From: Treponema sp.
GTDB taxonomy: Bacteria > Spirochaetota > Spirochaetia > Treponematales > Treponemataceae
DNA: 64,000 nt
Reading direction: 5' to 3'
Assembly (NCBI GenBank): GCA_024693045.1
Contig: JAILLQ010000004.1
Coordinates: forward strand, 1 to 64,000
Shown: positions 5,024-61,177 of the stretch, in pieces
Layout: every line of letters starts with the position of its first letter
How positions within the stretch are numbered: position 1 is the first letter of the stretch
Notes under the pieces: generated by a model
Database searches by the model: none
Told to the model about the DNA's origin: nothing
The model's input: the letters and a program-made list of their open reading frames with translations, nothing else
Made by a program: the position numbers and the translations under genes

Positions 5024-5284
5024 ATGAGAATTTTGGAACTGCGAGACCTCAACAGAGAAGAGGGTTACATTTACTATCGACGCAACTTTACTGGAACTGC
5101 AGTTATAGAAATTCCAGGTTCAACACTTGAAACACCAGTCTCTTTTTGCATAGAAATGAATCCTTTTGGTGCAAAAACTATTGAAATAGATATCCAAAAT
5201 ACATTAAATTACCCTGTACTCCCAGTAAAAAAAGCTCTAAAGGAATACATTTTATTACAGGACGCAGAAGGTATATTACCTTGA
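5024..5284 (+). CDS. Small conserved hypothetical protein
   Basis: 86-aa ORF, 4-nt overlap with tsaE. Confidence 0.65.
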   Translation: MRILELRDLNREEGYIYYRRNFTGTAVIEIPGSTLETPVSFCIEMNPFGAKTIEIDIQNTLNYPVLPVKKALKEYILLQDAEGILP

Positions 5285-5715
5285 AAACTTTTACAACTCA
5301 CACAGCAGAAGAAACAATAGAACTTGGTAAAAAAATTGGAAATCTCCTTAAAAAAGGAGATGTTATTGCAATGCAGGGAACCTTGGCGGCAGGAAAAACA
5401 ACTATCACAAAGGGAATTGCAGAAGCTCTTGAAGTAAAAGACACCATTACCAGCCCAACTTTCTGTTTAATAAGCGAATATGAAGGAAAAATGCCCCTTT
5501 ATCACATGGATGTATACCGTCTTGAAGGTGGTGAAGATTTTGTAAATTTAGGAACAGACGACATGATTTATGGAGAAGGTGTTTCCATTATAGAATGGAG
5601 TGAAAAAATCATGGACGAGCTTCCAAAAAAGACTATAATTCTCAAATTGGAACCTCAGGAAGACGGTTCAAGAATCATTACCATTGAAAATTGGCCTCAT
5701 GGAGAAATTGCATAA
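5281..5715 (+). CDS. tsaE: tRNA t6A biosynthesis ATPase TsaE (TTG start)
   Basis: P-loop GTLAAGKTTITKGIAEAL; TSPTFCLISEY; HMDVYRLEG motifs of YjeE/TsaE. Confidence 0.9.
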   Translation: MKTFTTHTAEETIELGKKIGNLLKKGDVIAMQGTLAAGKTTITKGIAEALEVKDTITSPTFCLISEYEGKMPLYHMDVYRLEGGEDFVNLGTDDMIYGEGVSIIEWSEKIMDELPKKTIILKLEPQEDGSRIITIENWPHGEIA

Positions 5716-6393
5716 ATGAAAGCCCTTGCAGTTGATTTAGCTGTTTCAAAATTAACAGTAGCAGCAAAAAATGAAGATCACACAGTTACAGCTTCTTACG
5801 ATATTGGAATGAAACAGTCAGAAACTTTAGTTCCTGCTATCGATTATGTATTGGAAAAAGCTGCAATAGAAAAAAATAAGCTTGATTTTCTGGCAATTAC
5901 AAAGGGTCCAGGTTCCTTCACAGGATTACGACTTTCCTTTGCAGCTTTAAAATCATTAGAGCTGGCTTTAAATATCCCCCTTTACGGAATTTCTACATTA
6001 GACTGCTATGCAGAGCCATATAAAAATCTTCCATTCGCTATTGTTTCAGTAATTGATGCAAGAAAAGATAAATTTTATGCAAAAGTCACATGTGAAAAAA
6101 ATATTATTCTTGAAGAAGGCGATTATCTGCCAGAGGAAATTTTGAATTCGTTAAAGCAGATTACTGGGGACAAGGAAATTCTTATCTGTGGCTCAGATGC
6201 TGAACTTTTTTACAATCAGATAAAGGATTCCACAGATAAAAAACTCTATTTTCTGCCATTTAATATTACCACTACTGATTCACTTTTTGATATTGCTGAA
6301 AAGATGTATGCAGAAAAAAATACAGGCCTCAACGATTACGATGGACCTGTATATTTAAGAGCTAGTGAAGCTGAAGAAAAAATATCTAAATAA
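5716..6393 (+). CDS. tsaB: tRNA t6A biosynthesis protein TsaB
   Basis: LAITKGPGSFTGLRLSFAALKSLELALNIPLYGISTLD motif; adjacent to tsaE. Confidence 0.9.
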   Translation: MKALAVDLAVSKLTVAAKNEDHTVTASYDIGMKQSETLVPAIDYVLEKAAIEKNKLDFLAITKGPGSFTGLRLSFAALKSLELALNIPLYGISTLDCYAEPYKNLPFAIVSVIDARKDKFYAKVTCEKNIILEEGDYLPEEILNSLKQITGDKEILICGSDAELFYNQIKDSTDKKLYFLPFNITTTDSLFDIAEKMYAEKNTGLNDYDGPVYLRASEAEEKISK

Positions 6394-6621: not shown

Positions 6622-6622
6622 A

Positions 6623-10825: not shown

Positions 10826-10830
10826 CGGGT

Positions 10831-10903
10831 TGAGCCATGCAGGGATCGAACCTGCGACCCACAGATTAAGAGTCTGTTGCTCTACCAGCTGAGCTAATGG
10901 CCC
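10831..10903 (-). tRNA. tRNA-Lys(CTT)
   Basis: Cloverleaf foldable; GGGCCATTAGCTCAGCTGGTAGAGCAACAGACTCTTAATCTGTGGGTCGCAGGTTCGATCCCTGCATGGCTCA; anticodon loop CTCTTAA. Confidence 0.95.
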
Positions 10904-10913
10904 ATTTTTTTAT

Positions 10914-10987
10914 TGCGTCCGACAGGATTCGAACCTGCTACAACCGGATTCGAAGTCCGGGACTCTATCCAGATGAGCTACGGGCGC
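10914..10987 (-). tRNA. tRNA-Arg(TCG)
   Basis: Minus strand GCGCCCGTAGCTCATCTGGATAGAGTCCCGGACTTCGAATCCGGTTGTAGCAGGTTCGAATCCTGTCGGACGCA; anticodon loop CTTCGAA. Confidence 0.93.
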
Positions 10988-11018
10988 AATTTCCGCATCT
11001 CTTAGAGTAAGCGGATTG

Positions 11019-11223: not shown

Positions 11224-11273
11224 CTTATACATCGCCGAACGATGTTGTCTATTGTACAACAGGTTCGAATCTA

Positions 11274-13014: not shown

Positions 13015-13620
13015 ATGATGAACGAACAGATGAATACATTAGTACCCTACGTAATTGAAAAAAGCGGAAACGGGGAAAGATCTTTTGATATTTTTTCACG
13101 TCTTTTAAAAGACCGTATCATTTTCGTAGATGGCGAAATTAACGATGCAACAGCAGATTTAGTTGTTGCACAGATTCTTTACCTCGAATCAGAAAACCCG
13201 GAAAAAGATATCAGCATTTATATCAACTCTCCAGGTGGTTCTGTAACCGCAGGATTAGCAATTTACGACACAATGCAGTATGTAAAATGCCCTATTCAGA
13301 CAATTTGCCTGGGTCAGGCAGCCAGCATGGGAGCTTTCCTTCTTGCCGGCGGTTCTAAAGGTAAAAGATACGCTCTTCCATCTTCAAGAGTGATGATTCA
13401 CCAACCTTGGGGCGGCGTTGAAGGTCAGGAAACAGACATTGCAATTCACGCAAAAGAAATTAAACGCTTGAAGGAACTTTCAATTAAACATTTTGCAGAA
13501 CATACTGGAAAAGATTACGACCAGGTTGCAAAAGACATGGAAAGAGACTTCTTTATGAGTGCAGACGAAGCTTTAGAATACGGAATCGTTGATAAAGTTA
13601 TGAAAGGGAGAAAGAAGTAA
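13015..13620 (+). CDS. clpP: ATP-dependent Clp protease proteolytic subunit
   Basis: [35 protein letters not shown] catalytic Ser/His region. Confidence 0.98.
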
Positions 13621-14919: not shown

Positions 14920-14950
14920 AACCCCGGCTTCAAAACCGGGGTTTATTTAT
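14920..14950. terminator. Terminator between convergent clpX and glycosyltransferase genes
   Basis: AACCCCGG-CTTCAAAA-CCGGGGTT followed by TTATTTATTTT. Confidence 0.8.
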
Positions 14951-16062
14951 TTTAATAAAGTTTTTGCAATTTCAATTGTTTTTGAAACCGTACTTTCCCA
15001 GTTGAAAAGTTTTGCCCTTTCCAAACCTTTTTGAATCATGCCTGCACAAAGCAAAGGTTCTGAAGCAAGTTTTTCAAACACTTTGACAAAATCTGTAAGG
15101 TTATCAGGATCAAAGAACAAAGCCGCATCCCCTGCAATCTCTGGAAGAACCCCAGAAGAAGCACAGGCAACAGGAACACCTGTAGCCATAGCTTCGAGAA
15201 CAGGTAAACCTACCCCCTCATTTACAGCCGGAAAAATCAAGCCCTGAGAACCTGAGTACAAGAGAGGAAAACTTTCATGAGGAAAGTAACCTGTAAGAAA
15301 AATATCTGAAGCATAAGGAGAATCAAAAGTTGCTTTATGAACTTCCGCTGAATGAGGCCCGTCACTTCCACAAATAACAAGTCTGTGTGGCAATCCTGTT
15401 TTTTTCTTAAATTCACTAAAGGCTCTTATTAATTCAATATGTTTTTTTTCAGGACCTGAAAGGCGCGATCCATAAATAAAATAAGGCTTTCGGATTGCAA
15501 AAGGCTTTATATCAATACTTTCTTCATCCAGTTGAATTTGAGGGTAAAAGAGTTTGTGGTCTATTCCATTATAAACAACTTCTATTTTATTCCCGTCAAT
15601 TCCATGTGAAATCAAATCATTTTTTATGAAATTACTGGCTGCAATAATCTTTTGAACTTTAAAAAGCCCCCTTTTAATCTGTATTTTCTGAATCCAGTCT
15701 TTTTTACCTTCCACCATAGATGAAAGAACAGTATTTACCACCGCAATTCCAGGAACCTTAAAACTTATAGGAAGAACTTTTTCCGGAGCGGAATACAAAA
15801 CAAGGTCATACTTTCTAGACTGGGCAAATTTATTTACAGAAGTAAAATGCCAGGTACGTTCTGCACTCAAATTATCCTGAACAGAAACTGGTACAAAAGA
15901 TATATCCTTTCCAGAAGTATATGTAAATCTATCTATTTCTGAACCAAAAAGTTCAAAATGCACATCTTCGTTTTCGCTTAAAACAGATGAAAATGAAAGC
16001 ATATAGGTTCCAATCCCGCTTCTTGCGTGATCACAACCAAAAGTGTCAACACCAATTATCAT
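14947..16062 (-). CDS. Glycosyltransferase family 1/4-type (GT-B)
   Basis: GSRLSGPEKKHIELIRAFSEF; FPAVNEGVGLPVLEAMATGVPVACASSGVLPEIAGDAALFFDP. Start taken as ATG 16062 because the GTG at 16068 is 2 nt from a -10-like hexamer. Confidence 0.88.
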   Translation of the reverse strand: MIIGVDTFGCDHARSGIGTYMLSFSSVLSENEDVHFELFGSEIDRFTYTSGKDISFVPVSVQDNLSAERTWHFTSVNKFAQSRKYDLVLYSAPEKVLPISFKVPGIAVVNTVLSSMVEGKKDWIQKIQIKRGLFKVQKIIAASNFIKNDLISHGIDGNKIEVVYNGIDHKLFYPQIQLDEESIDIKPFAIRKPYFIYGSRLSGPEKKHIELIRAFSEFKKKTGLPHRLVICGSDGPHSAEVHKATFDSPYASDIFLTGYFPHESFPLLYSGSQGLIFPAVNEGVGLPVLEAMATGVPVACASSGVLPEIAGDAALFFDPDNLTDFVKVFEKLASEPLLCAGMIQKGLERAKLFNWESTVSKTIEIAKTLLK

Positions 16063-16109
16063 AATCACCTATTATAGCACAAGTTTATTTGCTATGCTAT
16101 AATTTACTC

Positions 16110-17246
16110 ATGATAGAAAATCCGGTATTTAAAGAATTCCCTTCAGAAATTTTAGAAAATCTTGAAAAATTAAACATAACAAAGCCTACAAAAGTTCAGG
16201 AAAGAATTATTCCAATCATTCTCGAAAATAAAAATGTAGTTTTTCAATCTGAAACAGGAACAGGAAAGACTTTTGCATACTTGCTGCCAATTCTAAAAGA
16301 TATTACAGATTCTTTAATCGCTAATCCTCAGGATACTTCGGTAAAAGCGATAGTGTGCGCCCCAACTTTCGAACTTGCATCACAAATTAACCAGGCGGCA
16401 AAAAGCATTTCCAGCATAAAAACAGCCCTTTTTATCGGAAGTTCACCTATAAAAAGACAGATAGAAAGCCTTAAAGACAGACCTCTTATAGTTATTGGAA
16501 CACCGTCAAGACTTGTTGAACTAATCCGATTAAAGAAACTAAAAGTTCAAAAAACTAAATTTATAGTATTTGACGAAGCAGACAGACTTATAAAGAAAGA
16601 ATTGATAGAAGAATGCTCGGAGCTAAAAAAATCTCTTTCAGAAAGCATAATCACAATCGCCTGCTCCGCTACGCTTTCAAACAAGGTAAAAGATTTTTTT
16701 TCCAATTCAAGCATTGAAATATTGCCAGAAGAAGATGTTTTAAAAAGAAATATAAGTCACTGGGCTTTATACGCTGAAAACAGAGACAAAATTGACCTTT
16801 TGCGAAAATTCTTATTAGCGGAAAAACCTGAAAAAGCCTTAATCTTTACAAGCAGAGCTGACCAGGTTGAAAATATTTACTCAAAACTTTCCTATAAAAA
16901 AATCGATTGTATGGCTCTTCATGCAAAATCCGACAAAGTAAGCCGAAAAGCAGCCATAGATAAATTCCGAAGTGGAAAAGCTAATATTCTAATAACAAGT
17001 GATCTTTCTGCCCGTGGGTTAGACATACAGAATATAAGCCATGTGATACAAATGGACTTACCTAGAGACAGAGATTTTTTTATTCACCGTGCAGGTCGAA
17101 CAGCAAGAGCCGGTAAAAAAGGAATAAATGTTCTTATAGGAGATGAATACGAATTAAAAGAGTTTGCCCTTTTGGAAAAAAAATTAGGCTTTGTTGTATA
17201 CCCAAAAGAAGTCCGGGAAGGTCAAGTTCTAGCCCCTATCTTATAA
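16110..17246 (+). CDS. DEAD-box RNA helicase
   Basis: SETGTGKTFAYLLP, VFDEADRLI, SATL, HRAGRTARAG helicase motifs. Confidence 0.95.
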   Translation: MIENPVFKEFPSEILENLEKLNITKPTKVQERIIPIILENKNVVFQSETGTGKTFAYLLPILKDITDSLIANPQDTSVKAIVCAPTFELASQINQAAKSISSIKTALFIGSSPIKRQIESLKDRPLIVIGTPSRLVELIRLKKLKVQKTKFIVFDEADRLIKKELIEECSELKKSLSESIITIACSATLSNKVKDFFSNSSIEILPEEDVLKRNISHWALYAENRDKIDLLRKFLLAEKPEKALIFTSRADQVENIYSKLSYKKIDCMALHAKSDKVSRKAAIDKFRSGKANILITSDLSARGLDIQNISHVIQMDLPRDRDFFIHRAGRTARAGKKGINVLIGDEYELKEFALLEKKLGFVVYPKEVREGQVLAPIL

Positions 17247-25447: not shown

Positions 25448-26386
25448 CTAGATAAATAACTTACTGCTAGTTTTTTCATAAAGAAAACGCAAATCTTCTT
25501 CTTTTAGGCTGGTAAAATTACAATCAGCAGCCAAAAGATTTCCATTTTCGGATTGGTAGATATTATTTACCAAACAGGTAACGAAAACACTTCTCACAAT
25601 GGAAGGGGTCTCTTTTATGGCAAAAGACATTGAAAGAGGATATTCTTCGCCTTCTTGAATTCGAATAGCGTCATTCTTTTCAAAGCCTAATAAAATTCTC
25701 TCGTGATTTACAAAAAGGATATCAAACGGTCTTACCCTTCCCTGAATAGAAAGGATTTTTTCATCTTTGTTTTCGACAAAGTATTTTGCTGCATTAATTA
25801 ACTGAATCCCGTCACCAGATTTTCCATTTTTCCTAGCGTGAGAAACCATTTCTTCAAGATATTTTTTTGCTTCTGCCTGTTTTTCAAGCTCGATTGACGA
25901 CCATGCAGGTCTTGAAAATAGTTCAACATTTTCATAAGGGCGGCAGAAAAATGAAATTTCTTTTTCGATAATGGAATAATAAAGCAAGGCTGAAAAATCG
26001 TACTTATTATCGATTTCAAGATCTGGTATACGGCAAATGAACTTTGGTATAACAATAGCAGGACCCGACGACACAAATTTTAAGTCTGTGATAAAATAAA
26101 GGCCAACTCTATTAAAATAAAATTCAACTTTAACAGCTTTTTCTTTGTATTCTTCAACTTCTTCCGGGGGATTTTTTAATAAAATGATACCTTCCTTTAA
26201 AACAGACAAATCTTCAGCTTTTATAAAAAATACTTTTGAAGAAAGATTCTTTATTTCATCTGCATCAGATTTTTCTTCTTCCACGGGAGTTATAGTTACA
26301 GGAACATTACCATCAACCAGATATTTTAAAACCAGTTCTCTTTCAATTTCCGATAAAACATTTGTATCCATTATTTTCTCTCCCAT
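25448..26386 (-). CDS. Hypothetical protein, possibly PilZ-like C-terminus
   Basis: C-term ..VTCLVNNIYQSENGNLLAADCNFTSLKEEDLRFLYEKTSSKL resembles PilZ-family ends; no clear RxxxR motif. Confidence 0.55.
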   Translation of the reverse strand: MGEKIMDTNVLSEIERELVLKYLVDGNVPVTITPVEEEKSDADEIKNLSSKVFFIKAEDLSVLKEGIILLKNPPEEVEEYKEKAVKVEFYFNRVGLYFITDLKFVSSGPAIVIPKFICRIPDLEIDNKYDFSALLYYSIIEKEISFFCRPYENVELFSRPAWSSIELEKQAEAKKYLEEMVSHARKNGKSGDGIQLINAAKYFVENKDEKILSIQGRVRPFDILFVNHERILLGFEKNDAIRIQEGEEYPLSMSFAIKETPSIVRSVFVTCLVNNIYQSENGNLLAADCNFTSLKEEDLRFLYEKTSSKLFI

Positions 26387-27024
26387 CTGCTAATTTGAAT
26401 AGCATCAATTTTATAAGGTGTAATCGAAGTAAAATACAAAATAATATCAATGTGACCCTTTAAGGCATATAATCTAACAGGTAGCTGAACCTGGTCTTCC
26501 AGAAAGTAAGGTTCACCGTACAATTTTGATTGAAATAAAGTTATATCATCTTGAACAATTGGGAAAGTTTCAGAAAAATTTTCTTCCCAAAGATGTTCTA
26601 TGTCATATTTAAAAAGGGTCAGACTAAAAATTGAATTGTCCTGAACCTTTAATGACGATAACTGCCATTTGGCAAGAGATTCAAAAGTAGAATCTAAAAA
26701 AGTTTTCATTTCCTTTGAAATTGAAGAAGTATCCAAACTTCCAAAACCTTCAAGATATGGATAAAGAGATTTTTTTCCGGTAAGAGCTGAAGTCATAACA
26801 AGAGGCTCAAGTTTTATGCTGTCTGCAACAACTTGATTTTTTTTTGTATCAAGCAGAAGTCTTACACTTTCCAACTCGCGGGTCCATAAAAGTTCGTTTT
26901 CCCTGTGCTCAGCTAAAGCCCTGATTGTAATCTCTTCTGAAATAACTTTATCACTCCCCTGTCCACCGGAGCAACTAATGAGTAAAAGTGACAAAATAAT
27001 TAAAAAGGGAAATAATAACCTCAT
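26371..27024 (-). CDS. Putative lipoprotein, function unknown
   Basis: Signal/lipobox LIILSLLLISCSGG; overlaps downstream ORF by 16 nt. Confidence 0.7.
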   Translation of the reverse strand: MRLLFPFLIILSLLLISCSGGQGSDKVISEEITIRALAEHRENELLWTRELESVRLLLDTKKNQVVADSIKLEPLVMTSALTGKKSLYPYLEGFGSLDTSSISKEMKTFLDSTFESLAKWQLSSLKVQDNSIFSLTLFKYDIEHLWEENFSETFPIVQDDITLFQSKLYGEPYFLEDQVQLPVRLYALKGHIDIILYFTSITPYKIDAIQISRWERK

Positions 27025-27139: not shown

Positions 27140-28255
27140 ATGTCGAATTTATTAGATTATTTAGACTGGCGCGGTGATATTTCATTTAAAAAATCGTCTG
27201 CAAATAAAATAGATTATTTAATGCTGGCTCAAATTTCATATGTTAATTTTGACGGACTGCTTAAAACTTTAGATTTTTCAAAAAAAGTAAGTCTCAAAGA
27301 ATTAAAAGAAATGTTCCTAAAAAGCACGGATATCGATAAAAGACGAGACACAGGGGCCTTGATTAATCCTCTTACAATAGACTTATTTGAAAAGGCCGCT
27401 GAATCAGAAAGATTTTCCCAGGTAGAAATTACCGGATATCAGTCAATAGTAAACCAAAACACAGAAGAACAGTTTGCCGCAATGACCTTTATTCTTCCAG
27501 ATGGAGATAATTTTATTGCTTTCAGAGGTACCGACGACAACATAGTAGCTTGGAAGGAAGATTTCAACCTAGCCTTTATGGATGAAATTCCAGCACAAAA
27601 AGATTCTGTTGACTATATTCTAAAAGCTTATGAGCAGCTTACAGGAAACTTTACTATCGGGGGACACTCTAAGGGAGGCAACCTTAGCATTTATTCAGTT
27701 TTAAAAACCTACAAAAAAATAAAAAAACGATTTAAAGATGTATATAACTTTGATGGGCCAGGATTTTCTGATGAAAGACTTTCAAGTAAAGAATTTAAAG
27801 AAATAATTCCTCACATAAAGTCCTATTATCCACAGTTTTCAATCGTTGGAATGCTATTTTCTAATGCAGGAGAATACGAAGTTATAAAAAGTTCGGAAAC
27901 CCTTGTAATGCAGCATGATCCTTTCAGCTGGCATATTTTAGGAAAGAATTTTATAACGCTAGAAAACTTCGATTTGGGAAGTAAATTCTTTCACACAACG
28001 TTCAACACATGGCTTTCTGAAATGGACAACGAAAGAAGGGCTCTTTTTATTGAAACCCTCTTCGACATAATCAATGTTACAGATGCAAAAACTAATTCAG
28101 AAATAGAAAAGAACATCGCACAAAATTCTGTAAAAATTCTTACTGCTCTTTCAAAATTGGATCCTGACTTAAGAAAGAAAATGACAGAAATTGTTGCAAA
28201 TCTTTTTAAATCTGCACAAAAAACGATACCAAATTTCTTTGGTTTAAAACAATAA
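27140..28255 (+). CDS. Mbeg1-like (DUF2974) alpha/beta-hydrolase
   Basis: FIAFRGTDDNIVAWKEDFNLAF and FTIGGHSKGGNLSIYS (GxSxG-like nucleophile elbow). Confidence 0.85.
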   Translation: MSNLLDYLDWRGDISFKKSSANKIDYLMLAQISYVNFDGLLKTLDFSKKVSLKELKEMFLKSTDIDKRRDTGALINPLTIDLFEKAAESERFSQVEITGYQSIVNQNTEEQFAAMTFILPDGDNFIAFRGTDDNIVAWKEDFNLAFMDEIPAQKDSVDYILKAYEQLTGNFTIGGHSKGGNLSIYSVLKTYKKIKKRFKDVYNFDGPGFSDERLSSKEFKEIIPHIKSYYPQFSIVGMLFSNAGEYEVIKSSETLVMQHDPFSWHILGKNFITLENFDLGSKFFHTTFNTWLSEMDNERRALFIETLFDIINVTDAKTNSEIEKNIAQNSVKILTALSKLDPDLRKKMTEIVANLFKSAQKTIPNFFGLKQ

Positions 28256-28292: not shown

Positions 28293-28637
28293 ATGGAAAA
28301 TACAACAATTGTTACAGACAGTCCTGTAGGGCGTCATCTTGATAAAATTGCTGGAGCAAAACCAGCCTCTTACTTAATGTTCAATAAAAAAAGAATTGAT
28401 TTGGTTGCAAAAATTACAATCGGCCGTGAATACGATAACGATGTTGTTGTAGATAACAAGCTTGCGAGCCGACATCACGCTGTAATCCAAAAAATCAAAG
28501 ATGCTTTTTTTATTCGGGATGAAAACAGCACTAATGGTACATTTGTAAATGACCGCCGCATTCCAGAAGGAAAATACATAAAACTCAACAAGGGTGACAA
28601 AATTACAATCGGCACAATGCAGCTGGTAATGTCATAG
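28293..28637 (+). CDS. FHA-domain protein
   Basis: TIGREYDNDVVVDNKLASRHHAVIQKIKDAFFIRDENSTNGTFVNDRRI. Confidence 0.95.
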   Translation: MENTTIVTDSPVGRHLDKIAGAKPASYLMFNKKRIDLVAKITIGREYDNDVVVDNKLASRHHAVIQKIKDAFFIRDENSTNGTFVNDRRIPEGKYIKLNKGDKITIGTMQLVMS

Positions 28638-31331: not shown

Positions 31332-33899
31332 ATGACAGAAAATTCGAACGATAATGCAGAAAAAAATGAAGAGATTATTGATTCTCTATTAAATCATTTA
31401 AAAGACGAAGCTGAAGAAGTTATAAATAAAAGTCAGGAAGAAAAACCTGCAAAAAAAATTAAAAAAATCAAAAAAGGTGGAATTATACCGGCTGACCAGG
31501 TTTTACCAAGCAGACTCCCTATTATACCTATTCAGGGAAGACCTATTTTTCCTGGAATTTTCACCCCCCTCATGATTTCAAATCAGGAAGATATCAAAGC
31601 TATTGAAGAAGCCTACAAAGGAGACAGCCATATTGGTATTGTCATGTTAAAAAAAGACAATCCACAAACTTCCTACAAAGATTTGTACTCTATTGGAACA
31701 GCAGCTAAAATAATAAAAAAGATTAATTTACCAGATGGCGGGATTAATGTATTTATTTCGACAATTAAAAGGTTCAAATTAAAAAAAGCCCTTCATGCAA
31801 AAGCTCCAATAGTAGCTGCCATAGATTATTTGGACGATGAAGAAGATGACACTTTTGAAGTAAAAGCTCTTACCAGAGCCCTTATAAGTGAAATGAAAGA
31901 GGTTTCTGAAAACAACCCTCTTTTTACCGAAGAAATGCGCCTGAACATGGTAAATATCGATCATCCTGGAAAAATTGCAGATTTTATCGCTTCAATTTTA
32001 AATGTCGAAAAAGAAGACCAGCAAAAAGTTCTTGAAATGGTAAATGTACGCCAAAGAATGGAACAGGTTTTAGTGTATATAAAAAAAGAACAGGAACTTC
32101 TAAAAGTACAAAAGAAAATCCAGAACGATATAAACGAAAGAGTTGAAAAAAATCAACGCGATTACTTCTTACGCGAAGAACTTCGTTCAATTCAAGAAGA
32201 ACTTGGAACAGATGCAGATGGCAACGACAGTGACTACCAGAAATTCAAGAAAAAAATCGAAGAGTTTAAATTTGAAGGTGAAATAAAAGAAAGCCTTGAA
32301 AGCGAACTTGATAAGTTCCGTATTTTGGATACAGCTAGTCCAGAATACACTGTTTCAAGGAACTTTCTTGAATTAGTTACCCAGCTTCCTTGGAAAGACC
32401 AGGCTTTTGAATCATTTAACCTTGATACAGCCAAAAAGATTCTCAATGCCGATCACTATGGACTTGATGACGTAAAAAAACGAATTCTAGAATTCCTTGC
32501 AGTTAGAAAGTTGAAGAAAGACAACAAAGGAACAATCATCATTCTAGTAGGTCCTCCTGGAGTTGGAAAAACTTCAATTGGAAAATCAATTGCAAAGGCA
32601 ATGAATAAACCTTTCTATCGCTTTAGTGTAGGCGGTATGAACGACGAAGCAGAAATTAAAGGCCACAGACGCACTTACATTGGTGCCATGTGCGGAAAAG
32701 TAATTCAAGGCTTAAAAATTACCCATACAAAGTCTCCTGTATTTCTGATTGACGAAGTTGATAAAATGACTCAGAGCGCCAGAGGAGACCCAGCCAGTGC
32801 TTTGCTTGAAGTTTTAGACCCAGAACAGAATGTTGCTTTCCGAGATAACTATCTGGATCTGCCTTTCGATGTTTCGAATGTTTTCTTTATTTTAACTGCA
32901 AATACACTTGATACAATTCCAGAACCCTTGTTGGATCGTGCAGAAATTATTCAACTTTCAGGATACATCGATCAGGAAAAAATCGAAATTGCAAAAAAAT
33001 ACCTTTTGCCAAAAAATCTTGAAAAAAACGGAATTGCAAAAGGAAAAGTAAAATACACAAAAGACGCCCTGCTCAGAATTGCCCAGGAATTTGCCAGAGA
33101 AGCTGGTATGAGACATTATGAAAAGTGCCTGGACAAAATCCATCGCAAAATAGTCACAGAAATGATGGAAGATGCAGACAAAAAAGTAATTGAGGCTGTA
33201 AAAATCGCAAAAGAAGAAAAAAAATCGGCGGAAGAAATAAAGGCTATCAACAGCGACAAGTTCTTTGACAGCGAAAAAACTTATACAATCGATGCCGGCG
33301 ATTTGGAAAAGTACCTTGGAAAACCAGTATTTGATGAAAGCGAAATAAAGCGAGCTTCTGTTCCGGGAACAGCAATAGGACTTGCATGGACTAGCATGGG
33401 CGGCGATACACTCATGATAGAAAGTGTATCTTTCCCAGGAAAGGGAGAACTAGTTCTTACCGGTCAGCTGGGCGATGTTATGAAAGAATCTGCCGCAATT
33501 GCTATGAACTGGGCAAAAAAATATATTCTAGAAAATAAACTGAAAGATGTAGAATGGTTTGAAAAAAATACGATTCACCTGCATATTCCAGAGGGTGCAA
33601 CTCCAAAAGATGGTCCTAGTGCCGGAATTACTATGGCGACAACATTCATTTCTCTGCTTACAGGAAAGACTATTAAGCAAAACCTTGCTATGACAGGAGA
33701 ACTTTCTCTTACAGGAAATGTTCTTCCTATAGGTGGATTAAGAGAAAAAACAGTTGCGGCTAAACGTAATAAAATCAAAACAATTTTGATTCCAAAAGCC
33801 AACGAAAGAGACTTGGAAGAAATCCCAAGCCACGTAAAATCAGGGATAAAATTTATCCCTGTTACAAGAGTGGAAGATGTAATTAAAAACGCATTTTAA
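31332..33899 (+). CDS. lon: ATP-dependent protease Lon
   Basis: LPIIPIQGRPIFPGIFTPL, GPPGVGKTSIGKSIAKAMNKPFYRFSVGG, catalytic PKDGPSAGITMATTF. Confidence 0.97.
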   Translation: MTENSNDNAEKNEEIIDSLLNHLKDEAEEVINKSQEEKPAKKIKKIKKGGIIPADQVLPSRLPIIPIQGRPIFPGIFTPLMISNQEDIKAIEEAYKGDSHIGIVMLKKDNPQTSYKDLYSIGTAAKIIKKINLPDGGINVFISTIKRFKLKKALHAKAPIVAAIDYLDDEEDDTFEVKALTRALISEMKEVSENNPLFTEEMRLNMVNIDHPGKIADFIASILNVEKEDQQKVLEMVNVRQRMEQVLVYIKKEQELLKVQKKIQNDINERVEKNQRDYFLREELRSIQEELGTDADGNDSDYQKFKKKIEEFKFEGEIKESLESELDKFRILDTASPEYTVSRNFLELVTQLPWKDQAFESFNLDTAKKILNADHYGLDDVKKRILEFLAVRKLKKDNKGTIIILVGPPGVGKTSIGKSIAKAMNKPFYRFSVGGMNDEAEIKGHRRTYIGAMCGKVIQGLKITHTKSPVFLIDEVDKMTQSARGDPASALLEVLDPEQNVAFRDNYLDLPFDVSNVFFILTANTLDTIPEPLLDRAEIIQLSGYIDQEKIEIAKKYLLPKNLEKNGIAKGKVKYTKDALLRIAQEFAREAGMRHYEKCLDKIHRKIVTEMMEDADKKVIEAVKIAKEEKKSAEEIKAINSDKFFDSEKTYTIDAGDLEKYLGKPVFDESEIKRASVPGTAIGLAWTSMGGDTLMIESVSFPGKGELVLTGQLGDVMKESAAIAMNWAKKYILENKLKDVEWFEKNTIHLHIPEGATPKDGPSAGITMATTFISLLTGKTIKQNLAMTGELSLTGNVLPIGGLREKTVAAKRNKIKTILIPKANERDLEEIPSHVKSGIKFIPVTRVEDVIKNAF

Positions 33900-42431: not shown

Positions 42432-43178
42432 TTAAAATTGATAAAAATTATGGAAATTATTTTCAATATGCATGGAAAAAACTTCAAAATCGGTAACTTC
42501 CTTTACTTCCATGGCTCTTTTGTATATGTGCGGAAGAAAAGTAAAATCGTCTTCATCACTTTCTAAAAGTATTTTTTCAATGGGGAGTTTTTTTAATGAC
42601 ATAATACTTTTTTTTGCATTGTTTAAAATGAGGCGGCCAAAACTAAAATATGCAGCTGGGATTTTTCGAACTATTTCTTCCATAATTTCAGGACTGGAAG
42701 AAAAACCATGAAATAAAACACCTGGAAGCTGATTCAAAGCAGGAAAATCCTTTAAAATAAGGGGAAAAGCTTTTCTGCAATGAATTACAATCGGTAAATT
42801 AAATTTTTTTGCAAGTTCAAGCTCTATTTTCCAAGCTTCTTCCTGAATTTTTTGACTTTCTTTTAATTCTTCCGTGAAGAAATCAAAACCGGCTTCACCA
42901 AGAGCTATAATTCTCCCCTTCTTTGCTAATTCTTCTAGAAAAAAGGAATCTTCAAGATTCAAATACCAGGGATGAAAGGCAAAAGTCAGTTTAATTTTTT
43001 CTTCAAGTTTATGCTCCATAAGGTATTTTTCCTGGGCCAAAAAATCCGCTTTATTCACAGCTGTTGAAACACCAGCTTTTATAAAATTCAATTTTTCTGA
43101 TAAAAAATCGAAATTTATGGCATTTTTTTGCGAAAAAAGGTGAAAATGGGCATTAAAAAGTGAAGAAAATTCTAACAT
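42432..43178 (-). CDS. TatD-family hydrolase
   Basis: FNAHFHL, FAFHPWYL, IALGEAGFDFF, LPIVIHCRKAFP, LLESDEDDF. Confidence 0.85.
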   Translation of the reverse strand: MLEFSSLFNAHFHLFSQKNAINFDFLSEKLNFIKAGVSTAVNKADFLAQEKYLMEHKLEEKIKLTFAFHPWYLNLEDSFFLEELAKKGRIIALGEAGFDFFTEELKESQKIQEEAWKIELELAKKFNLPIVIHCRKAFPLILKDFPALNQLPGVLFHGFSSSPEIMEEIVRKIPAAYFSFGRLILNNAKKSIMSLKKLPIEKILLESDEDDFTFLPHIYKRAMEVKEVTDFEVFSMHIENNFHNFYQF

Positions 43179-45783: not shown

Positions 45784-46680
45784 ATGATTAAAAAGACTCT
45801 GATTTCTTTTGCTTTTATTTTTACTGCAACTGTTTTTTTTGCAAAAGACAGACCTGTGGTTACAGAAATCAATGCATACCCAGGAAAGGGAACTGTTATT
45901 AATATCTCATGGAAGATTCCTGTAAATCCAGACAAGGAAATAGATTCTTTTTCTGTATACCGGTCTTCAAGTCCAATTGGAACATATTACGACCTTTCTA
46001 AAGCAAAATTGATTGGTACTGTAGATTCTGTTACTTCAGGGTTCACTGACAATGTAAAAAATTATAACGACTACTATTATGCTGTAGTAGCAGTTATAGA
46101 AAACCAGCCATACGATATTATACTTCCATCAATAAATTCTACTGTAAATGGGGTTCATTTAAAACTGCCTGAAAAAGGTGAAAATATCACAAAATCACCT
46201 TCTGCAAAAGAAAGGCTTATCGGTGTAGATGAACTTAGAGAAATTCCCCTACCGTATCTTAATATGGCTGACTACACAAGGAAAAAGCCACTTCCATTAA
46301 GTATGCAAGTAAAAAATGCTGCAAAATCTCTAACGGGCGGGCAAAAAAAGAAAGAATCAAAGCAACTTGATATTTATGTTTTCGAAGAAGATTTGATTTC
46401 GCCAGATGGTGGTGATGATTACCTGCTTTTTGATATTCTAAAAAATACTTTTATTCAAAAAAAATATTCAGATGCCGCTGTACAGCTTGAATCCCTTTTA
46501 GGAACAAATTGTTCTCTTTCTGTTCAAAGACGGGCAATTTTTTATCTAGGAGAATCACAGTATTACTACCAGGATTATGCACAGGCAGTCAGAACTTTTT
46601 TGAGAATATACGAAATCTATCCATCTTTGACAAAGAAATGGATAGACTCCAGTTTAGATTTTCTATATCAGGAAAATTAA
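45784..46680 (+). CDS. Exported protein with FN3-like region and TPR-like C-terminus
   Basis: N-term signal peptide; GKGTVINISWKIPVNPDKEIDSFSVYRSSSPIGTYYDL; C-term repeat-like helices. Confidence 0.65.
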   Translation: MIKKTLISFAFIFTATVFFAKDRPVVTEINAYPGKGTVINISWKIPVNPDKEIDSFSVYRSSSPIGTYYDLSKAKLIGTVDSVTSGFTDNVKNYNDYYYAVVAVIENQPYDIILPSINSTVNGVHLKLPEKGENITKSPSAKERLIGVDELREIPLPYLNMADYTRKKPLPLSMQVKNAAKSLTGGQKKKESKQLDIYVFEEDLISPDGGDDYLLFDILKNTFIQKKYSDAAVQLESLLGTNCSLSVQRRAIFYLGESQYYYQDYAQAVRTFLRIYEIYPSLTKKWIDSSLDFLYQEN

Positions 46681-50080: not shown

Positions 50081-51920
50081 GTAATTTTGCCTCCTCTAAG
50101 GTCTTATCACCTAAAACACTTTTTTCACCTTCAGTTTTAGAAGTCTTTTCAGGCTTTTCTGATTTTTCAGGCTTTTCTGATTTTTCAAGCTTTTCAGTTT
50201 TTTCTGATTTCTCTACTTTTTCAGACTTTTCTACTTTTTCTACTGATTCTTCGGTCTTAGACTCTGAATCAGGATCTTTCTGATTAGGATATTTAACTCT
50301 GTTATGATAGAAACCAACCAGGAATTTTACAAAGGAAGCCTTAATTCTATTTAAATCGCTGAATGTTAAGGCACAATTATCCAGCTGTCCGTGTTCCATT
50401 TTATCTGTAATCAATTTATCAATAAATTTTTCAAGTCTTTCTTCAGTTGGGTTTTCAAGAGAACGGCAGGCAGCTTCTACAGTATCCGCCAGCATGACTA
50501 CTCCGGCTTCTTTTGAAGATGGAGGATTTCCAGGATACATAAAATCCACAGGATTTACATTAGGGTCAGTTTCTTTTGCCTTTGCGTAAAACCAAGCCAT
50601 GATACTGTTTCCATGATGCTCATTTATTATATCAATTACAAGCTGAGGAAGATGCATCTGGTGAGCCATTTCAACACTCTTTCTTACATGACTTCTCAAA
50701 ATTGAAGCAGAAAGTGTTGGAGCAATCTTATCATGAGGATTTACACCGTCTATCTGGTTTTCTGTAAAATATTCACTCTGATCAATCTTACCTACGTCAT
50801 GGTACCAGGCACCAACTTTTGCAAGCAGACCATTAGCCCCAATTTCACGGCAGGCATTTTCTGCAAGGATTCCAACATTCATTGAATGGTTATATGTTCC
50901 ATTTGCAGTCTGGTAAAGTTTCTTTAGTATAGGTGTATTAGTGTCACTCAAATCTACAAGTCTGAAAACAGAAGCTGTATTTAAAATCAACTCAACAGGA
51001 GTAAGAAGAGCCAGTGTAAGAATTCCTGAAAGAAATCCGTTTAAAGCAACTCCAATAAGAATGAGTGGCAATTTTACAAAATTTTCATTAAAAATTACGG
51101 CAAGAATTAAAGTGATTACAACATTGAAAAGAGCCAGCATAAGGGCAACAAGAATCAAATCCATGCGCTTTTCAATTTTGCGGACAATAATAGAACTTGC
51201 AAGACAAGATGCCAGAGTAAAAAGGAAAGGAACTATGCTGTAATCAGAAGCAGAGTAAACTCCAAATGACAAAATTATTGAAAAGAAAATTGCAGCAAGC
51301 TGTCCATACAAAATTGCATCAGTGAGCACCATAAGAGAAGCTGAAATAATTACCAGCATAGGAAAAGCTTCTTCAAAGTATGTAGTTTTTGAGCCGTAAA
51401 TCGTCCCTGCATAAACCAAAAGGAAAGAGATAACCATAAAAATCATTTCGCGCAAATGAATTTTTCGGCCAAAAGGAGCGAAAGCAAAGAAGATAAACCA
51501 CATTGTAGCGAGCAGGAAGATATAAAGTTCTGTGTTCGCAAAAGAACGATAATCCAAATAAAAAGGAGATTCAGCCATTTTTTGAAGTTTTGCATAATTT
51601 TCTTCAGTTATAGGAAAGCCCTTTCTGATAATTTTTTCACCCTCTTCAATAAAAACAGGATTCATTTCATCAGCTGGAATTGTTCTTGGAGCTTCAATTG
51701 TTCTGTCAGAAATTTGTCCCACTTCAAAATCTGCAAGTCTGAAAGAATTGATTGTCTGAGAAGATGACATGTCAAAAACATTTATACCAGTAACAGCTAG
51801 ATATCCAAGCAGACAGAGAATAATTACCGGATAATGAGCTATAATTCCGGCAGCTAAATCAGAGAAAAAAGATGCAAACACATTTTTACTTTCACTAGAA
51901 TTCATTTTGTTCATTTTCAT
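50073..51920 (-). CDS. 7TM-HD (PgpH-like) HDIG phosphohydrolase
   Basis: 7TM region then GTYNHSMNVGILAENA..KVGAWYHDVGKIDQSEYFTENQ; C-terminal EK-rich tail. Confidence 0.93.
   Translation of the reverse strand: MKMNKMNSSESKNVFASFFSDLAAGIIAHYPVIILCLLGYLAVTGINVFDMSSSQTINSFRLADFEVGQISDRTIEAPRTIPADEMNPVFIEEGEKIIRKGFPITEENYAKLQKMAESPFYLDYRSFANTELYIFLLATMWFIFFAFAPFGRKIHLREMIFMVISFLLVYAGTIYGSKTTYFEEAFPMLVIISASLMVLTDAILYGQLAAIFFSIILSFGVYSASDYSIVPFLFTLASCLASSIIVRKIEKRMDLILVALMLALFNVVITLILAVIFNENFVKLPLILIGVALNGFLSGILTLALLTPVELILNTASVFRLVDLSDTNTPILKKLYQTANGTYNHSMNVGILAENACREIGANGLLAKVGAWYHDVGKIDQSEYFTENQIDGVNPHDKIAPTLSASILRSHVRKSVEMAHQMHLPQLVIDIINEHHGNSIMAWFYAKAKETDPNVNPVDFMYPGNPPSSKEAGVVMLADTVEAACRSLENPTEERLEKFIDKLITDKMEHGQLDNCALTFSDLNRIKASFVKFLVGFYHNRVKYPNQKDPDSESKTEESVEKVEKSEKVEKSEKTEKLEKSEKPEKSEKPEKTSKTEGEKSVLGDKTLEEAKLHG
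50143..50250. repeat. Coding low-complexity repeat (EKxEKSEKxEK tail of PgpH-like protein)
   Basis: Repeated TTTTCAGGCTTTTCTGA-type units encoding EKVEKSEKVEKSEKTEKLEKSEKPEKSEKPEK. Confidence 0.85.
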
Positions 51921-52839
51921 AAGCCTTCACAATTTTTTTGACTAATGGATTTCTTACAACATCTTCTGCTGTAAGCTCAATCATTCCAATTTCGTCTATA
52001 TCTTTTAAAAGTTCCCTTGCATGAATTAAACCAGAAGGAACTTTTTTAGGTAAATCAATTTGACTTGGGTCCCCTGTAATAAAAACTTTCGAATTTTCTC
52101 CCATACGAGTCAGAAACATTTTCATCTGTTCCTTTGTTGTATTCTGAGCTTCGTCGAGAATAACTACTGCATTATTCAGAGTCCTTCCCCTCATGTAAGC
52201 AAGAGGAGCTATTTCTACTACTTCAGATTCAACCAGTCGTTTTACAGTTTCTTTTGGCAAAATCATTTCCATTGAATCGTAAAGAGGTCGAAGATAGGGA
52301 TTAATTTTATCTTCAAGGTCTCCCGGCAAAAAACCAAGACTTTCTCCAGCTTCAACAACAGGACGAGTTAGAATCAAGCGGCTCACCTTGTGCATTAAAA
52401 CCAGGCGAAGGGCTTCTGCAACAGCTATAAAAGTTTTACCGCTTCCTGCGGCCCCATGAGCAAAAACCATGCTGCAATCCCTCATAGCCTGTATATATTC
52501 AGCCTGATTCTGAGTATGAGGATACACCTTTCTAATTGCACCGGGAACCAATATAGAAATATTTTCCATATCAGCCTTGGCCTTTATATTCAACACAGAA
52601 GTGATAATGTCGCGGGTATTTTTTGTACCGTCTTGAACTTCGTCAGTAATGCGGTCAATGATGTAGCGGAATTTTTCACGCAGGGCAAAATCATCCGTAT
52701 CCACAGAAAGTTCATTCCCCCTTGTAAAAACCGGTAAGCCTAAGTGTTCTTCGATGAGTTTTAAATTGGTGTCATTAGTTCCACAAATAGAGGAAAGCAT
52801 ATCCATATCAGGAACTACAATAGTATATTCAGATTCCAC
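51895..52839 (-). CDS. phoH: PhoH-like ATPase (GTG start)
   Basis: FAHGAAGSGKTFIAVAEALRLV; RPVVEAGESLGFLPGDLEDKINPYLRPLYD; TGDPSQIDLP. Confidence 0.96.
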   Translation of the reverse strand: MESEYTIVVPDMDMLSSICGTNDTNLKLIEEHLGLPVFTRGNELSVDTDDFALREKFRYIIDRITDEVQDGTKNTRDIITSVLNIKAKADMENISILVPGAIRKVYPHTQNQAEYIQAMRDCSMVFAHGAAGSGKTFIAVAEALRLVLMHKVSRLILTRPVVEAGESLGFLPGDLEDKINPYLRPLYDSMEMILPKETVKRLVESEVVEIAPLAYMRGRTLNNAVVILDEAQNTTKEQMKMFLTRMGENSKVFITGDPSQIDLPKKVPSGLIHARELLKDIDEIGMIELTAEDVVRNPLVKKIVKAYENEQNEF

Positions 52840-56571: not shown

Positions 56572-59424
56572 TTATCGGTTACCTTTGAGCATTTCTTTGA
56601 TAAATTGCCCCGTATACGAAGCTTCTTCATCCGCAACTTCTTCAGGACTTCCCCTTGCAATTATATTTCCGCCTCTAAAACCACCTTCAGGACCCAAATC
56701 CAAAATGTAATCTGCCTGACAAATTACATCAAGGTTGTGTTCAATCATGACAACAGTATTTCCCTGCTCAACCAAACGCTGTATTACTTCCATGAGCATT
56801 TTTACATCTGCAAAATGAAGACCTGTTGTAGGCTCATCCATTATGTAAAGAGTTTTTCCTGTCGAAACTCTGGCAAGTTCGGTTGCAAGTTTTACACGTT
56901 GAGCTTCACCACCAGAAAGAGTAAGCGCACTCTGACCTAATTGAATATAACCAAGCCCAACAGATTTTAATGTTTCCAGTTTACGCGATATATGTGGAAT
57001 CGAAACAAAAAAATCAGCAGCTTCTTCAATAGTCATATTCAAAACATCATTTATGCTCTTACCTTTATATAACACTTCAAGGGTTTCACGGTTAAATCTT
57101 TTTCCACCACAGACATCACATGTGATAAAAACATCAGGTAAAAAGTTCATTTCGATTGTAATAGTACCGCTTCCCTGACAATTTTCACATCGACCACCCT
57201 TTACATTAAAACTGAATCGTCCCTTGGTGTATCCGTTTGCCTTTGCTTCAGGAAGACTTGCAAAAAGATCTCTGATTGCATCAAAAACACCAACATAGGT
57301 AGCAGGATTACTTCTAGGAGTTCTTCCAATAGGGCTCTGGTCGATATTGATAACCTTATCAATTGCTTCAAATCCTTCTATTGACTCATATGCTCCAACA
57401 GGATAAGAAGTTCTCATGATTTTGTTAGAAAGCAAAGGATAAAGAACATCACTCATAAGAGTTGATTTTCCACTACCAGATACACCTGTAATACAGGTAA
57501 AAGTTCCCAAAGGAATATCTATAGAAACATTCTTTAAATTGTGTTCAGTAACACCCTTTAATGAAATAAAGTTTCCATTTCCCTTACGTCTTTTTTCAGG
57601 GATTTTCATGAAAAGAGTTCCTGCCAGATATTGACCAGTCTTACTTTCTTTGACTTTCATAACTTCTTCCGGACTACCGGCAGCAACAACCTTACCCCCA
57701 TGAATTCCAGCTCCAGGGCCAATATCAACAAGAAAATCTGCAGTTCGCAAGGTCTGCTCATCGTGTTCAACAACAATTACTGTGTTCTGCTGGTCTCTAA
57801 GATAAGTTAGAGTATCAATAAGTTTCTGGTTATCCCTCTGATGTAAACCGATTGAAGGCTCGTCAAGAATATACATAACTCCAGTTAATGCAGAACCTAT
57901 CTGTGTCGCAAGCCTGATTCTCTGAGCTTCACCACCGCTTAAAGTTTCTGCAGAGCGTTCCAGAGTAAGATAATCAAGCCCTACATCTTTAAGAAATTTT
58001 AAGCGATTTTTTATTTCTTTTAAAACCTGGGAAGCAATTGACTTCTCTGTTTCTGAAAGTTCAAGATTTTCAAAGAAATCAATAGATTCCTGAACGCTCA
58101 AATTTGTAAGTTCAAAAATATTTTTTCCACCTACTGTAACTCCAAGAGCTTCGGGTCTAAGACGTTTTCCATGACAGGAAGAACATTCAGAAATAGACAT
58201 GTATTTTTCTTCAATGCGAACTCTCTGAGCTTCTCCCCAGGCTTCTGCATGGCGTCTCTTCATGTCGCCTATAACTCCAGGCCAGGGGCGATTATATTCA
58301 GAGAAACCTTCACCGCTTTGTTTTTTGTAAATCCAGTGAATATTCTTTTCAGTGTCACCTTTCCACAAAAAATCAAACTGATTTTTACTCAAGTCCTTAA
58401 TTGGTGTATCCAATGAAAATCCACCAGCTTCAGCAACTGCCGCAAACATAGAGCGGTTCCATTCGCTTTCAGGATTATAAAAAGGCAGAGCCCCCTGATT
58501 AAAAGAAAGCGAATCATCTGGAAGAATTTTTGAATTATCCCACTCCATTTTCTGACCTAAACCGGTACATTCAGAACAGGCTCCAAAAGGGTTATTGAAG
58601 GAAAAAAGTCGTGGCTGCAATTCAGGAATAGAAATTCCACAGTCTGGACAGGCATTTTTCTGGCTAAAGAATACTTCTTCATCTTTATCGCCAATACGCT
58701 TTGTTACAACAATAATTCCATTAGCACTGTTCAAAGCAGTTTCAACACTGTCCGACAGGCGCTTTCTGACATCAGAGTTTAAAACTATTCGGTCTACAAC
58801 AATTTCGATAGAATGCTTTTTCTGTTTATCAAGTTTAATCGGGTCATCTAACAAAGCCATTACACCATCGATACGAGCCCTAACAAAACCAGATTTTTTT
58901 GCATCTTCAATAATTTTTGTATGCTCACCTTTTTTTCCGCGTATAACCGGAGCTAAAATTTGAATTTTTGTATCTGGCTCCCAAGACATAATAGAATCGA
59001 CTATCTGGTCAACACTCTGCTCGCGAATTTCTCTACCGCAATTTGGACAGTGAGCGTGACCCGTTCTAGCGTAAAGCAAACGATAATAGTCATATATTTC
59101 GGTAATTGTTCCGACTGTTGAACGAGGATTTTTATTAGTAGATTTCTGTTCAATTGAAATAGCAGGAGAAAGACCTTCTATCAAATCTACATCAGGTTTA
59201 TCCATCGTACCCAAAAACTGGCGGGCATATGAGGAAAGACTTTCCATATAACGGCGCTGGCCTTCAGCAAAAAGAGTATCAAAGGCTAGAGAACTTTTTC
59301 CGGATCCAGAAAGCCCCGAAATGACAATCAATTTATTTCTAGGCAATTCAAGATCAATATTCTTTAAGTTGTGTTCTCTGGCTCCGCGAATTACAATTTT
59401 GTCGTTGTTAAAAATATGTTCCAC
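56572..59424 (-). CDS. uvrA: Excinuclease ABC subunit A
   Basis: IVIRGAREHNLKNIDLELPRNKLIVISGLSGSGKSSLAFDTLFAEGQRRYMESLSSYARQFLG; zinc fingers CPNCG.., CENCQGSG. Confidence 0.98.
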   Translation of the reverse strand: MEHIFNNDKIVIRGAREHNLKNIDLELPRNKLIVISGLSGSGKSSLAFDTLFAEGQRRYMESLSSYARQFLGTMDKPDVDLIEGLSPAISIEQKSTNKNPRSTVGTITEIYDYYRLLYARTGHAHCPNCGREIREQSVDQIVDSIMSWEPDTKIQILAPVIRGKKGEHTKIIEDAKKSGFVRARIDGVMALLDDPIKLDKQKKHSIEIVVDRIVLNSDVRKRLSDSVETALNSANGIIVVTKRIGDKDEEVFFSQKNACPDCGISIPELQPRLFSFNNPFGACSECTGLGQKMEWDNSKILPDDSLSFNQGALPFYNPESEWNRSMFAAVAEAGGFSLDTPIKDLSKNQFDFLWKGDTEKNIHWIYKKQSGEGFSEYNRPWPGVIGDMKRRHAEAWGEAQRVRIEEKYMSISECSSCHGKRLRPEALGVTVGGKNIFELTNLSVQESIDFFENLELSETEKSIASQVLKEIKNRLKFLKDVGLDYLTLERSAETLSGGEAQRIRLATQIGSALTGVMYILDEPSIGLHQRDNQKLIDTLTYLRDQQNTVIVVEHDEQTLRTADFLVDIGPGAGIHGGKVVAAGSPEEVMKVKESKTGQYLAGTLFMKIPEKRRKGNGNFISLKGVTEHNLKNVSIDIPLGTFTCITGVSGSGKSTLMSDVLYPLLSNKIMRTSYPVGAYESIEGFEAIDKVINIDQSPIGRTPRSNPATYVGVFDAIRDLFASLPEAKANGYTKGRFSFNVKGGRCENCQGSGTITIEMNFLPDVFITCDVCGGKRFNRETLEVLYKGKSINDVLNMTIEEAADFFVSIPHISRKLETLKSVGLGYIQLGQSALTLSGGEAQRVKLATELARVSTGKTLYIMDEPTTGLHFADVKMLMEVIQRLVEQGNTVVMIEHNLDVICQADYILDLGPEGGFRGGNIIARGSPEEVADEEASYTGQFIKEMLKGNR

Positions 59425-59491
59425 AATATAGAATTATAATGAAAAACATATAGAGTTGAAAGATTCTTTTGAAAAGAGAGACTTTTATAAA

Positions 59492-61177
59492 CTAATTTTT
59501 TGGTTTTGGTATTGGATTTCTAATATCCAATCGTCTTTCCGCAAGGAATTCTTTTCCATCTTTTTCATAGGCTGTAAAGTTTTTACCACTTGCCTTTGCC
59601 TTGTACATATTTTTATCGGCTTGTTCAATAGGATTTTCAGGAACCATTCCTATTCCAAAACTAGCTGTTATGCGAACATCCTTTTCAAGTCTAGTACGAG
59701 AAATTGAAGATCTAAGATCTTCTGAAAGTCGGATAGCTTTTTCAAGGTCGTTATTTTCAATAATAATGACAAACTCTTCTCCACCATATCTATAAGCGGT
59801 AACTCCCCTTTCTTCCTTTTTCGATAAAGTTTTTGCAACAAACTGAAGAACGTAATCACCGTAAGCGTGACCATAAGTGTCATTGATGTGTTTAAAATTA
59901 TCAATATCGAGCATTATAGCCGCATATTTTTTATTTAGTAGAGAATATTTTTTTATTTTTGTATTTAAAGACCCCCGGTTATTCAAACGAGTAAGGGGAT
60001 CCAACTGAAGCTGGCTATAGAGAGAGATAATTATTATGAAAGCAACAAGCAGAACAATAAAGTTGCCGTAAATCTGTTTAACCTTTCTTACTCTCACTTC
60101 TTTTATATCAGTTTTAAGAGTAAGTGTTTCCATAATTTCAAGAAATTTTTCACGAGTCAACTGAGTAAACTGTCTTAGTAAATCAGCTTCAAACTTTTCA
60201 GCTACTTCAGAAAGTTCAAAGAAAATCTGATTTCTGGCATCTTTCATTGTTTCCGGTACAGACATCATTACTTTTTTGGTATAACGAAGTTTTAAATTTG
60301 TAAAAAAGTACTGGTCACAATAATCAGAATACATTTTTAAATAGCTCAAACCTTCCTCGTATTTTCCAAGGGCTATTGAACTTTCTGTCATAACCTGGAG
60401 AACAGGAAGATAAAAATCAAATGCATTAAACTGAGATACAATTTCTTCTGAAGAATAATATACTTTATAAAGCCTTTTTGAATCTTCATAGGCCTTAAGA
60501 TAATCGTTCTTGTACAGACTTATCATGGTTTTTATAACTTCTGCAGAACGACGATAACTTACTCCGAATTGAGGATTGAAGGTATTGATAAACTCTGATT
60601 CAGAATCAGCAATAATCTGATTGGCAGCTTGTTCTGCTTCTACAAACTTTCCTTCCTCTACACTTAGCCGGGATAAAACCTGAAGGGACTGCAAACGGGT
60701 AAATTCATTCTCACACTCATAAAAGGGTCTTATTTCATAGGCTTTTCTTATCATTAGACTCGCCTCGGAATCATCACCCAATTCCTGAAAGTATTTTGCC
60801 ATATTTGCATAAAGATAAACCAAATCGTCTTTATTACCGGCCTTTTCGGCATAAAACAAGGCATAACCGACATTGTCAAAAAAAGAAGTCATATCATAAT
60901 TTGTATAAAACAATGTTGATTTAAGCATATATAGTTCACTCAACTGCTTTACTGTCAAATTATGTAATTCCAAAAGATTGTTTATGATTTTAAGGTCATA
61001 AGAAATACTGTTCTGAGTAAATTTCATATTGTGAATTTCTCTATCCATCTTTTTTTCATTATTTTTTTGAACTTTTGATACATAAAGGCGATAACTACCT
61101 AATCCAAGTAAATTCACCAACAGAACTATAATGAGAACTAAAATGATTTTCTTATTAATATTGCGCCTGTATTTCAT
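59492..61177 (-). CDS. Membrane diguanylate cyclase (GGDEF domain) with TPR-like extracytoplasmic region
   Basis: Two TM segments flank a helical repeat region; DPLTRLNNRGSLNTKI, YRYGGEEFVIII active-site motif. Confidence 0.92.
   Translation of the reverse strand: MKYRRNINKKIILVLIIVLLVNLLGLGSYRLYVSKVQKNNEKKMDREIHNMKFTQNSISYDLKIINNLLELHNLTVKQLSELYMLKSTLFYTNYDMTSFFDNVGYALFYAEKAGNKDDLVYLYANMAKYFQELGDDSEASLMIRKAYEIRPFYECENEFTRLQSLQVLSRLSVEEGKFVEAEQAANQIIADSESEFINTFNPQFGVSYRRSAEVIKTMISLYKNDYLKAYEDSKRLYKVYYSSEEIVSQFNAFDFYLPVLQVMTESSIALGKYEEGLSYLKMYSDYCDQYFFTNLKLRYTKKVMMSVPETMKDARNQIFFELSEVAEKFEADLLRQFTQLTREKFLEIMETLTLKTDIKEVRVRKVKQIYGNFIVLLVAFIIIISLYSQLQLDPLTRLNNRGSLNTKIKKYSLLNKKYAAIMLDIDNFKHINDTYGHAYGDYVLQFVAKTLSKKEERGVTAYRYGGEEFVIIIENNDLEKAIRLSEDLRSSISRTRLEKDVRITASFGIGMVPENPIEQADKNMYKAKASGKNFTAYEKDGKEFLAERRLDIRNPIPKPKN

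Follow-up and report, generated by a model that had tools for sequence, protein, structure and literature searches.

The window analysed here is a 64,000-nt stretch of contig JAILLQ010000004.1 from a gut-type Treponema sp., and its genes include those for a Lon protease, PhoH, UvrA, a DEAD-box helicase and a GGDEF protein (Table 1). Many of them have a −10-like hexamer ending a few nucleotides before the start codon, and a preliminary description of the sequence had read these genes as leaderless. All 12 of the hexamers that it listed were found at the given spacings when read back from the sequence; the sites at 5024 and 28293 are weak examples, with an upstream GGAG and AGGAG, respectively. 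One further candidate, at 13015, was absent from that list. The window also carries two back-to-back tRNA clusters at 10828-11543, with Lys, Arg and His on the minus strand and Leu, Gly and Gly on the plus strand.

Table 1. Genes and intergenic features of the window with −10-like elements next to start codons.
Feature	Coordinates	Strand	Upstream layout	Remarks
86-aa ORF	5024..5284	+	TTGCAA-N17-TAAATT-N6-ATG	weak: GGAG 12 nt upstream
Extra candidate	13015..13620	+	TTGGAT-N17-TATTAT-N8-ATG	weak: GGA near start
Glycosyltransferase (Glycos_transf_1)	14947..16062	-	TGCTATAAT-N8-ATG	back-to-back with 16110, 47 bp between starts
Divergent intergenic region, 47 bp	16063..16109		two extended −10 elements facing each other, 21 nt between them	serves two genes predicted to be leaderless
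DEAD-box helicase	16110..17246	+	TGCTATAAT-N6-ATG	
ORF	26371..27024	-	TAAAAT-N7-ATG	start uncertain: GTG at 27027, TTG at 26994
Mbeg1-like protein	27140..28255	+	TTCATA-N17-TATAAT-N6-ATG	
FHA-domain protein	28293..28637	+	TATAAT-N7-ATG	weak: 37 nt behind co-directional gene, AGGAG just before TATAAT
Lon protease	31332..33899	+	TTGCCC-N17-TATATT-N6-ATG	
TatD-family nuclease	42432..43178	-	TTGAAC-N17-TATTAT-N8-ATG	TIGR00010 from residue 7 supports start 43178
Protein without Pfam match	45784..46680	+	TTGATT-N17-TAAAAT-N6-ATG	
PhoH	51895..52839	-	TTGCGA-N17-TACAAT-N8-GTG	
UvrA	56572..59424	-	TATAAT-N8-GTG	layout kept in 11/16 Treponema uvrA loci
GGDEF protein	59492..61177	-	TTGCAA-N17-TATAAT-N7-ATG	start without protein-model anchor

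The layout was followed through 1,030,766 bp of the same genome (36% GC), comprising the window and 0.97 Mb of other stretches. Genes were called by hexamer coding potential, with the choice of start blind to the upstream sequence, and this gave 780 genes, of which 457 head a transcript (at least 40 nt of intergenic sequence upstream) and 269 are operon-internal (following a co-directional gene by less than 25 nt). We scored a TAxxxT core with at most one mismatch as a −10 element and denote by d the number of nucleotides between the end of the hexamer and the start codon. Comparison with dinucleotide shuffles, a check that the preliminary description had proposed, revealed a clear enrichment at d = 6-9, where 88 of the 457 heading genes have a −10 core against 19.1 ± 4.1 (maximum 32) in 300 shuffles. 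The one-mismatch core occurs at 45, 21, 14 and 12 heading genes at d6, d7, d8 and d9, respectively, over a background of about 5-6 per position, and exact TATAAT at 14, 8, 7 and 6, with about 1 per position elsewhere. The signal is strongest in divergent genes (54 of 192, 28%), whereas operon-internal genes display no peak, with 11/269 at d6-9 vs 6.4 at distal positions. Two counts that bypass the heading-gene statistics point the same way: exact TATAAT before the ATG of any open reading frame of at least 100 codons, independent of the gene caller, occurs 24, 17, 7 and 9 times at d6-9 (background ∼4 per position), although no peak was seen for GTG in that count, and whole-genome phase-matched counts gave 211 for TATAAT-N6..8-ATG vs 126 for TATAAT-N15..17-ATG. 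Chance matches to TATAAT in AT-rich DNA, picked near starts by a reader, would account for about 19 of the 88 cases, but not for an observed count so far above the shuffle maximum, nor for the signal when the window is left out (79 of 431 heading genes), which amounts to a replication independent of the sites originally picked.

The hexamers have the character of real promoters. In 26 of the 88 genes the −10 is preceded by a TTG at a spacing of exactly 17 bp, compared with 0-4 genes at each of the other spacings from 12 to 23, which bears out the 17-bp spacing noted in the preliminary description and is likewise difficult to reconcile with chance; it holds in 22 of 79 when the window is left out. 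An extended −10 (TGN) is found in 28 of the 88. A Shine-Dalgarno (SD) motif, in turn, is present in just 2 of the 88 genes vs 194 of all 457 heading genes (42%) and 191 of 269 internal genes, as expected from the scarcity that had been remarked on, although this exclusion is partly positional, a −10 at d6-9 occupying the place of the SD. SD-bearing genes are nearly devoid of a −10 at d2-9 and have it from about d14 outward, in agreement with the earlier suggestion of two initiation classes. The base at −1 is a pyrimidine in 89% of the class vs 55% of SD genes (p = 1.4e-8) and 41% of operon-internal genes. This fits a pyrimidine/purine initiator, but we consider it as supporting evidence only, since the pyrimidine is also raised in other promoter-near groups, for example in 20 of 24 genes with the −10 at d18-21. 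Start codons among the 88 include 3 GTG and 2 TTG, and a preference between ATG and GTG/TTG is not clear. We also considered that the A/T-rich element might act as a translational enhancer, through ribosomal protein S1 or an unstructured-region effect, rather than as a promoter. S1 is encoded in this genome, as a 785-residue frame with repeated S1 domains, and the idea of S1 sites has been raised for AT-rich biases in upstream sequence (PMC5397173); however, the signal is specific for TATAAT, is fixed in distance with TTG spaced at 17 bp, and is found in heading genes and not in operon-internal genes, although both need translation equally, so we reject this reading as very improbable.

A different concern is that the promoters are normal ones and the starts miscalled, the true translation start being an SD-preceded codon further along the gene. 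Indeed, the coding-potential caller put three of the starts in the preliminary description (27024, 43178 and 61177) further downstream, and of these 43178 is backed by the TatD model. Among 20 proteins of the class that we tested, NCBIfam models begin at residues 1-9 in most: at residue 1 in IspH and HisH, 2 in RdgB, 3 in Pth and PurL, and 7 in ValS, IleS, Pfk and UvrA, with Rpe also in this range. In IspH, HisH, RdgB, Pth and PurL there is thus no room for a further-downstream start, and most starts are not miscalled. The models leave more residues in front in a few cases, beginning at residue 14 in RpoN and MurC (13 residues before) and at about 62 in Lon (about 60 before), and they stop short of the N-terminus in Lon, PhoH and the GGDEF protein. 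Together with the uvrA orthologues described below, in which the layout persists despite changes in start codon and linker, the anchored N-termini lead us to reject miscalled starts as an account of the class; we hold it to be quite improbable.

Comparison genomes were treated by the same method, with about 200 kb taken from each. The peak is present in another species of the genus (12/94 vs 2.3 expected) and in a 1.14-Mb genome of the same family with 51.6% GC (7/82 vs 0.6), whereas a further family member (g21) shows a weak excess only (6/80 vs 3.1); one genome related at the order level (f5) gave 7/93 vs 2.9. No peak was found in the AT-rich relatives of 26.6-28.6% GC, with 7/85 vs 5.4 (f7), 8/114 vs 11.1 (f17) and 4/67 vs 3.1 (f13). 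AT-richness, against which the preliminary description had cautioned, is therefore not the driver of the peak, and with these controls added to the shuffles the chance reading is refuted and retains hardly any probability. Pooled loci from named Treponema gave 12/83 vs 2.6 expected, and there was no excess in loci from other named spirochaetes (1/64 vs 1.1) or in Clostridia-type loci (4/343 vs 8.4). Within the phylum, as judged from these sequences, the predicted leaderless class is present in the Treponema family, and none was detected in the three AT-richer families sampled.

Conservation in related Treponema, also proposed as a check at the outset, was followed at uvrA in loci from named genomes. 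Of 16 Treponema loci, 11 have a −10 core at d6-9 from an ATG or GTG that is in frame, compared with 1 of 13 in other spirochaetes and 1 of 47 in Clostridia-type loci, 35 of the latter 47 having an SD. T. saccharophilum and T. zioleckii are among the species with this uvrA layout. Between Treponema species the start codon and linker vary and the promoter layout is kept. Of the 11 conserved loci, 5 begin with GTG, which suggests that a 5'-terminal GTG is tolerated in Treponema uvrA; GTG stands directly behind a leaderless-type promoter in the uvrA of L179, L180, L191, L196 and L199 and at 59424 in the window, and the others have ATG. One assembly titled Clostridia bacterium (L184, JAFTUP010000288.1) encodes a UvrA that shares 78% identity with the Treponema query and is probably mislabelled or mixed.

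In sigma-70 geometry, a hexamer placed 6 nt before the codon puts the A of ATG at the canonical +1. Taken together, promoter placement, statistics, start anchoring and conservation support the original leaderless reading, and we give a probability of about 0.92 to the proposal that sigma-70-type promoters make leaderless mRNAs in a large minority of heading genes, beside a leadered class. RNA polymerase with the housekeeping sigma factor would bind a −35/−10 pair (TTG-N17-TATAAT-like) or an extended −10 TGN, and transcription would begin at, or 1-3 nt before, the A/G of the start codon, as the spacing implies. With the promoter adjoining the start codon, the mRNA would begin at or next to that codon and would thus be translated without a ribosome-binding leader; ribosomes would recognise the 5'-terminal start codon instead of an SD, by analogy with work in other bacteria. 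The remaining heading genes and most operon-internal genes would have a normal leader with an SD. Leaderless initiation is the sole explanation we found that fits the 6-nt peak, the −35 at 17 bp, the restriction to heading genes, the SD loss, the −1 pyrimidine, the anchored starts and uvrA. After correction for chance, about 15% of heading genes, (88 − 19)/457 or about one in six, are predicted to be leaderless, corresponding to about 9% of all called genes. For part of the class the same promoters may instead produce very short leaders of 2-9 nt, a graded variant of the preferred explanation in which some transcripts are not read as true leaderless mRNAs. About half of the genes in the class have their −10 core at d7-9, and many primary starts in Leptospira lie 0-10 nt from the codon (PMC5243855); against this, the maximum is at d6, placing +1 on the A, and the −1 pyrimidine is alike from d6 to d9, which is what transcription starting on the A would predict, and we regard short leaders as unlikely to be the better description.

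Leaderless mRNAs of Deinococcus and mycobacteria have the −10 about 6-9 nt before ATG or GTG and occur alongside SD-led genes. Those bacteria belong to other phyla, and the fraction in Treponema is lower, with most operon-internal genes SD-led; the Deinococcus-Thermus mean is 39% (PMC3160421). The preliminary description knew of no such feature in this lineage, but leaderless genes of spirochaetes are on record, both in silico (PMC3160421) and by dRNA-seq (PMC5243855). Zheng et al. (2011) reported TA-led leaderless genes in 6 of 18 spirochaete genomes, at a mean of 3.9% of genes (1.8-6.9) (PMC3160421). Their genes share with ours a −10-like TANNNT about 12 bp before the start, and the shuffle logic is the same; no Treponema is named in the main text of that study, and the present analysis adds the −35 spacing, the anchoring of starts by protein models and the conservation among orthologues. 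The fraction predicted here, about 9% of called genes and 15% of heading genes, is somewhat higher, caller and criterion being different. In Leptospira interrogans, of the same phylum, dRNA-seq placed the primary transcription start of about 440 genes within 10 nt of the start codon (PMC5243855); 5' ends were mapped there and are predicted here, and apart from RpoN no conserved promoter motif emerged in that study, whereas a clear sigma-70-type −10/−35 accounts for the placement in the present genome. RACE mapping in T. denticola showed flagellar genes to be leadered, behind promoters of the sigma-70 and sigma-28 types (PMC9481697), and our literature searches, with most subscription papers beyond reach, found no leaderless-mRNA study or map of Treponema. 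We regard the class described here as a new and well-supported instance of a mechanism already known, not as a new kind; its fraction somewhat exceeds the range published for spirochaetes. Pathogens of the genus cause syphilis, periodontal disease and disease in livestock, other members are abundant gut symbionts, and several Treponema are difficult to manipulate. A leaderless class that extends through the genome alters how gene starts are annotated and promoters predicted, and uvrA, lon, hisH, ispH, valS and ileS provide a clear test set for spirochaete ribosome starts on 5'-terminal codons.

The five shortest divergent gaps in the sampled genome measure 44, 46, 46, 46 and 47 bp, and each serves two predicted leaderless genes; they are the gap between the glycosyltransferase and helicase genes of the window and L025:9293-9336, L043:18753-18798, L050:8797-8842 and L058:3657-3702. 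None of 96 divergent gaps is shorter than 44 bp, and in four of the five a distance of 21 nt separates the facing −10 elements. Bidirectional promoters of E. coli most often have divergent starts 18 bp apart around a shared −10 (PMC12825309). The Treponema pairs resemble these in being compact, symmetric and divergent, but their −10s are two distinct elements facing each other, in most pairs at a distance of 21 nt, with start codons 44-47 bp apart, and a shared −10 of the E. coli type was rejected for 16062/16110 since two −10s with 21 nt between them are present. It is possible, though doubtful, that leaderless promoters are a packing device in Treponema, with facing −10s serving the shortest divergent gaps; part of the −10 of one gene would sit in the −35 position of the other, bringing the two genes into competition for polymerase. 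Local intergenic counts of facing −10 pairs gave no sharp spacing peak. Facing −10 elements were tallied with self-mirrored hits counted on both strands, and across 60 genomes of the family a gap of 21 occurs 23 times vs about 10 for each other gap, which is suggestive only. One of the 46-bp divergent pairs includes rpoN (sigma-54), at L050:7273-8796 on the minus strand, which is itself predicted to be leaderless.
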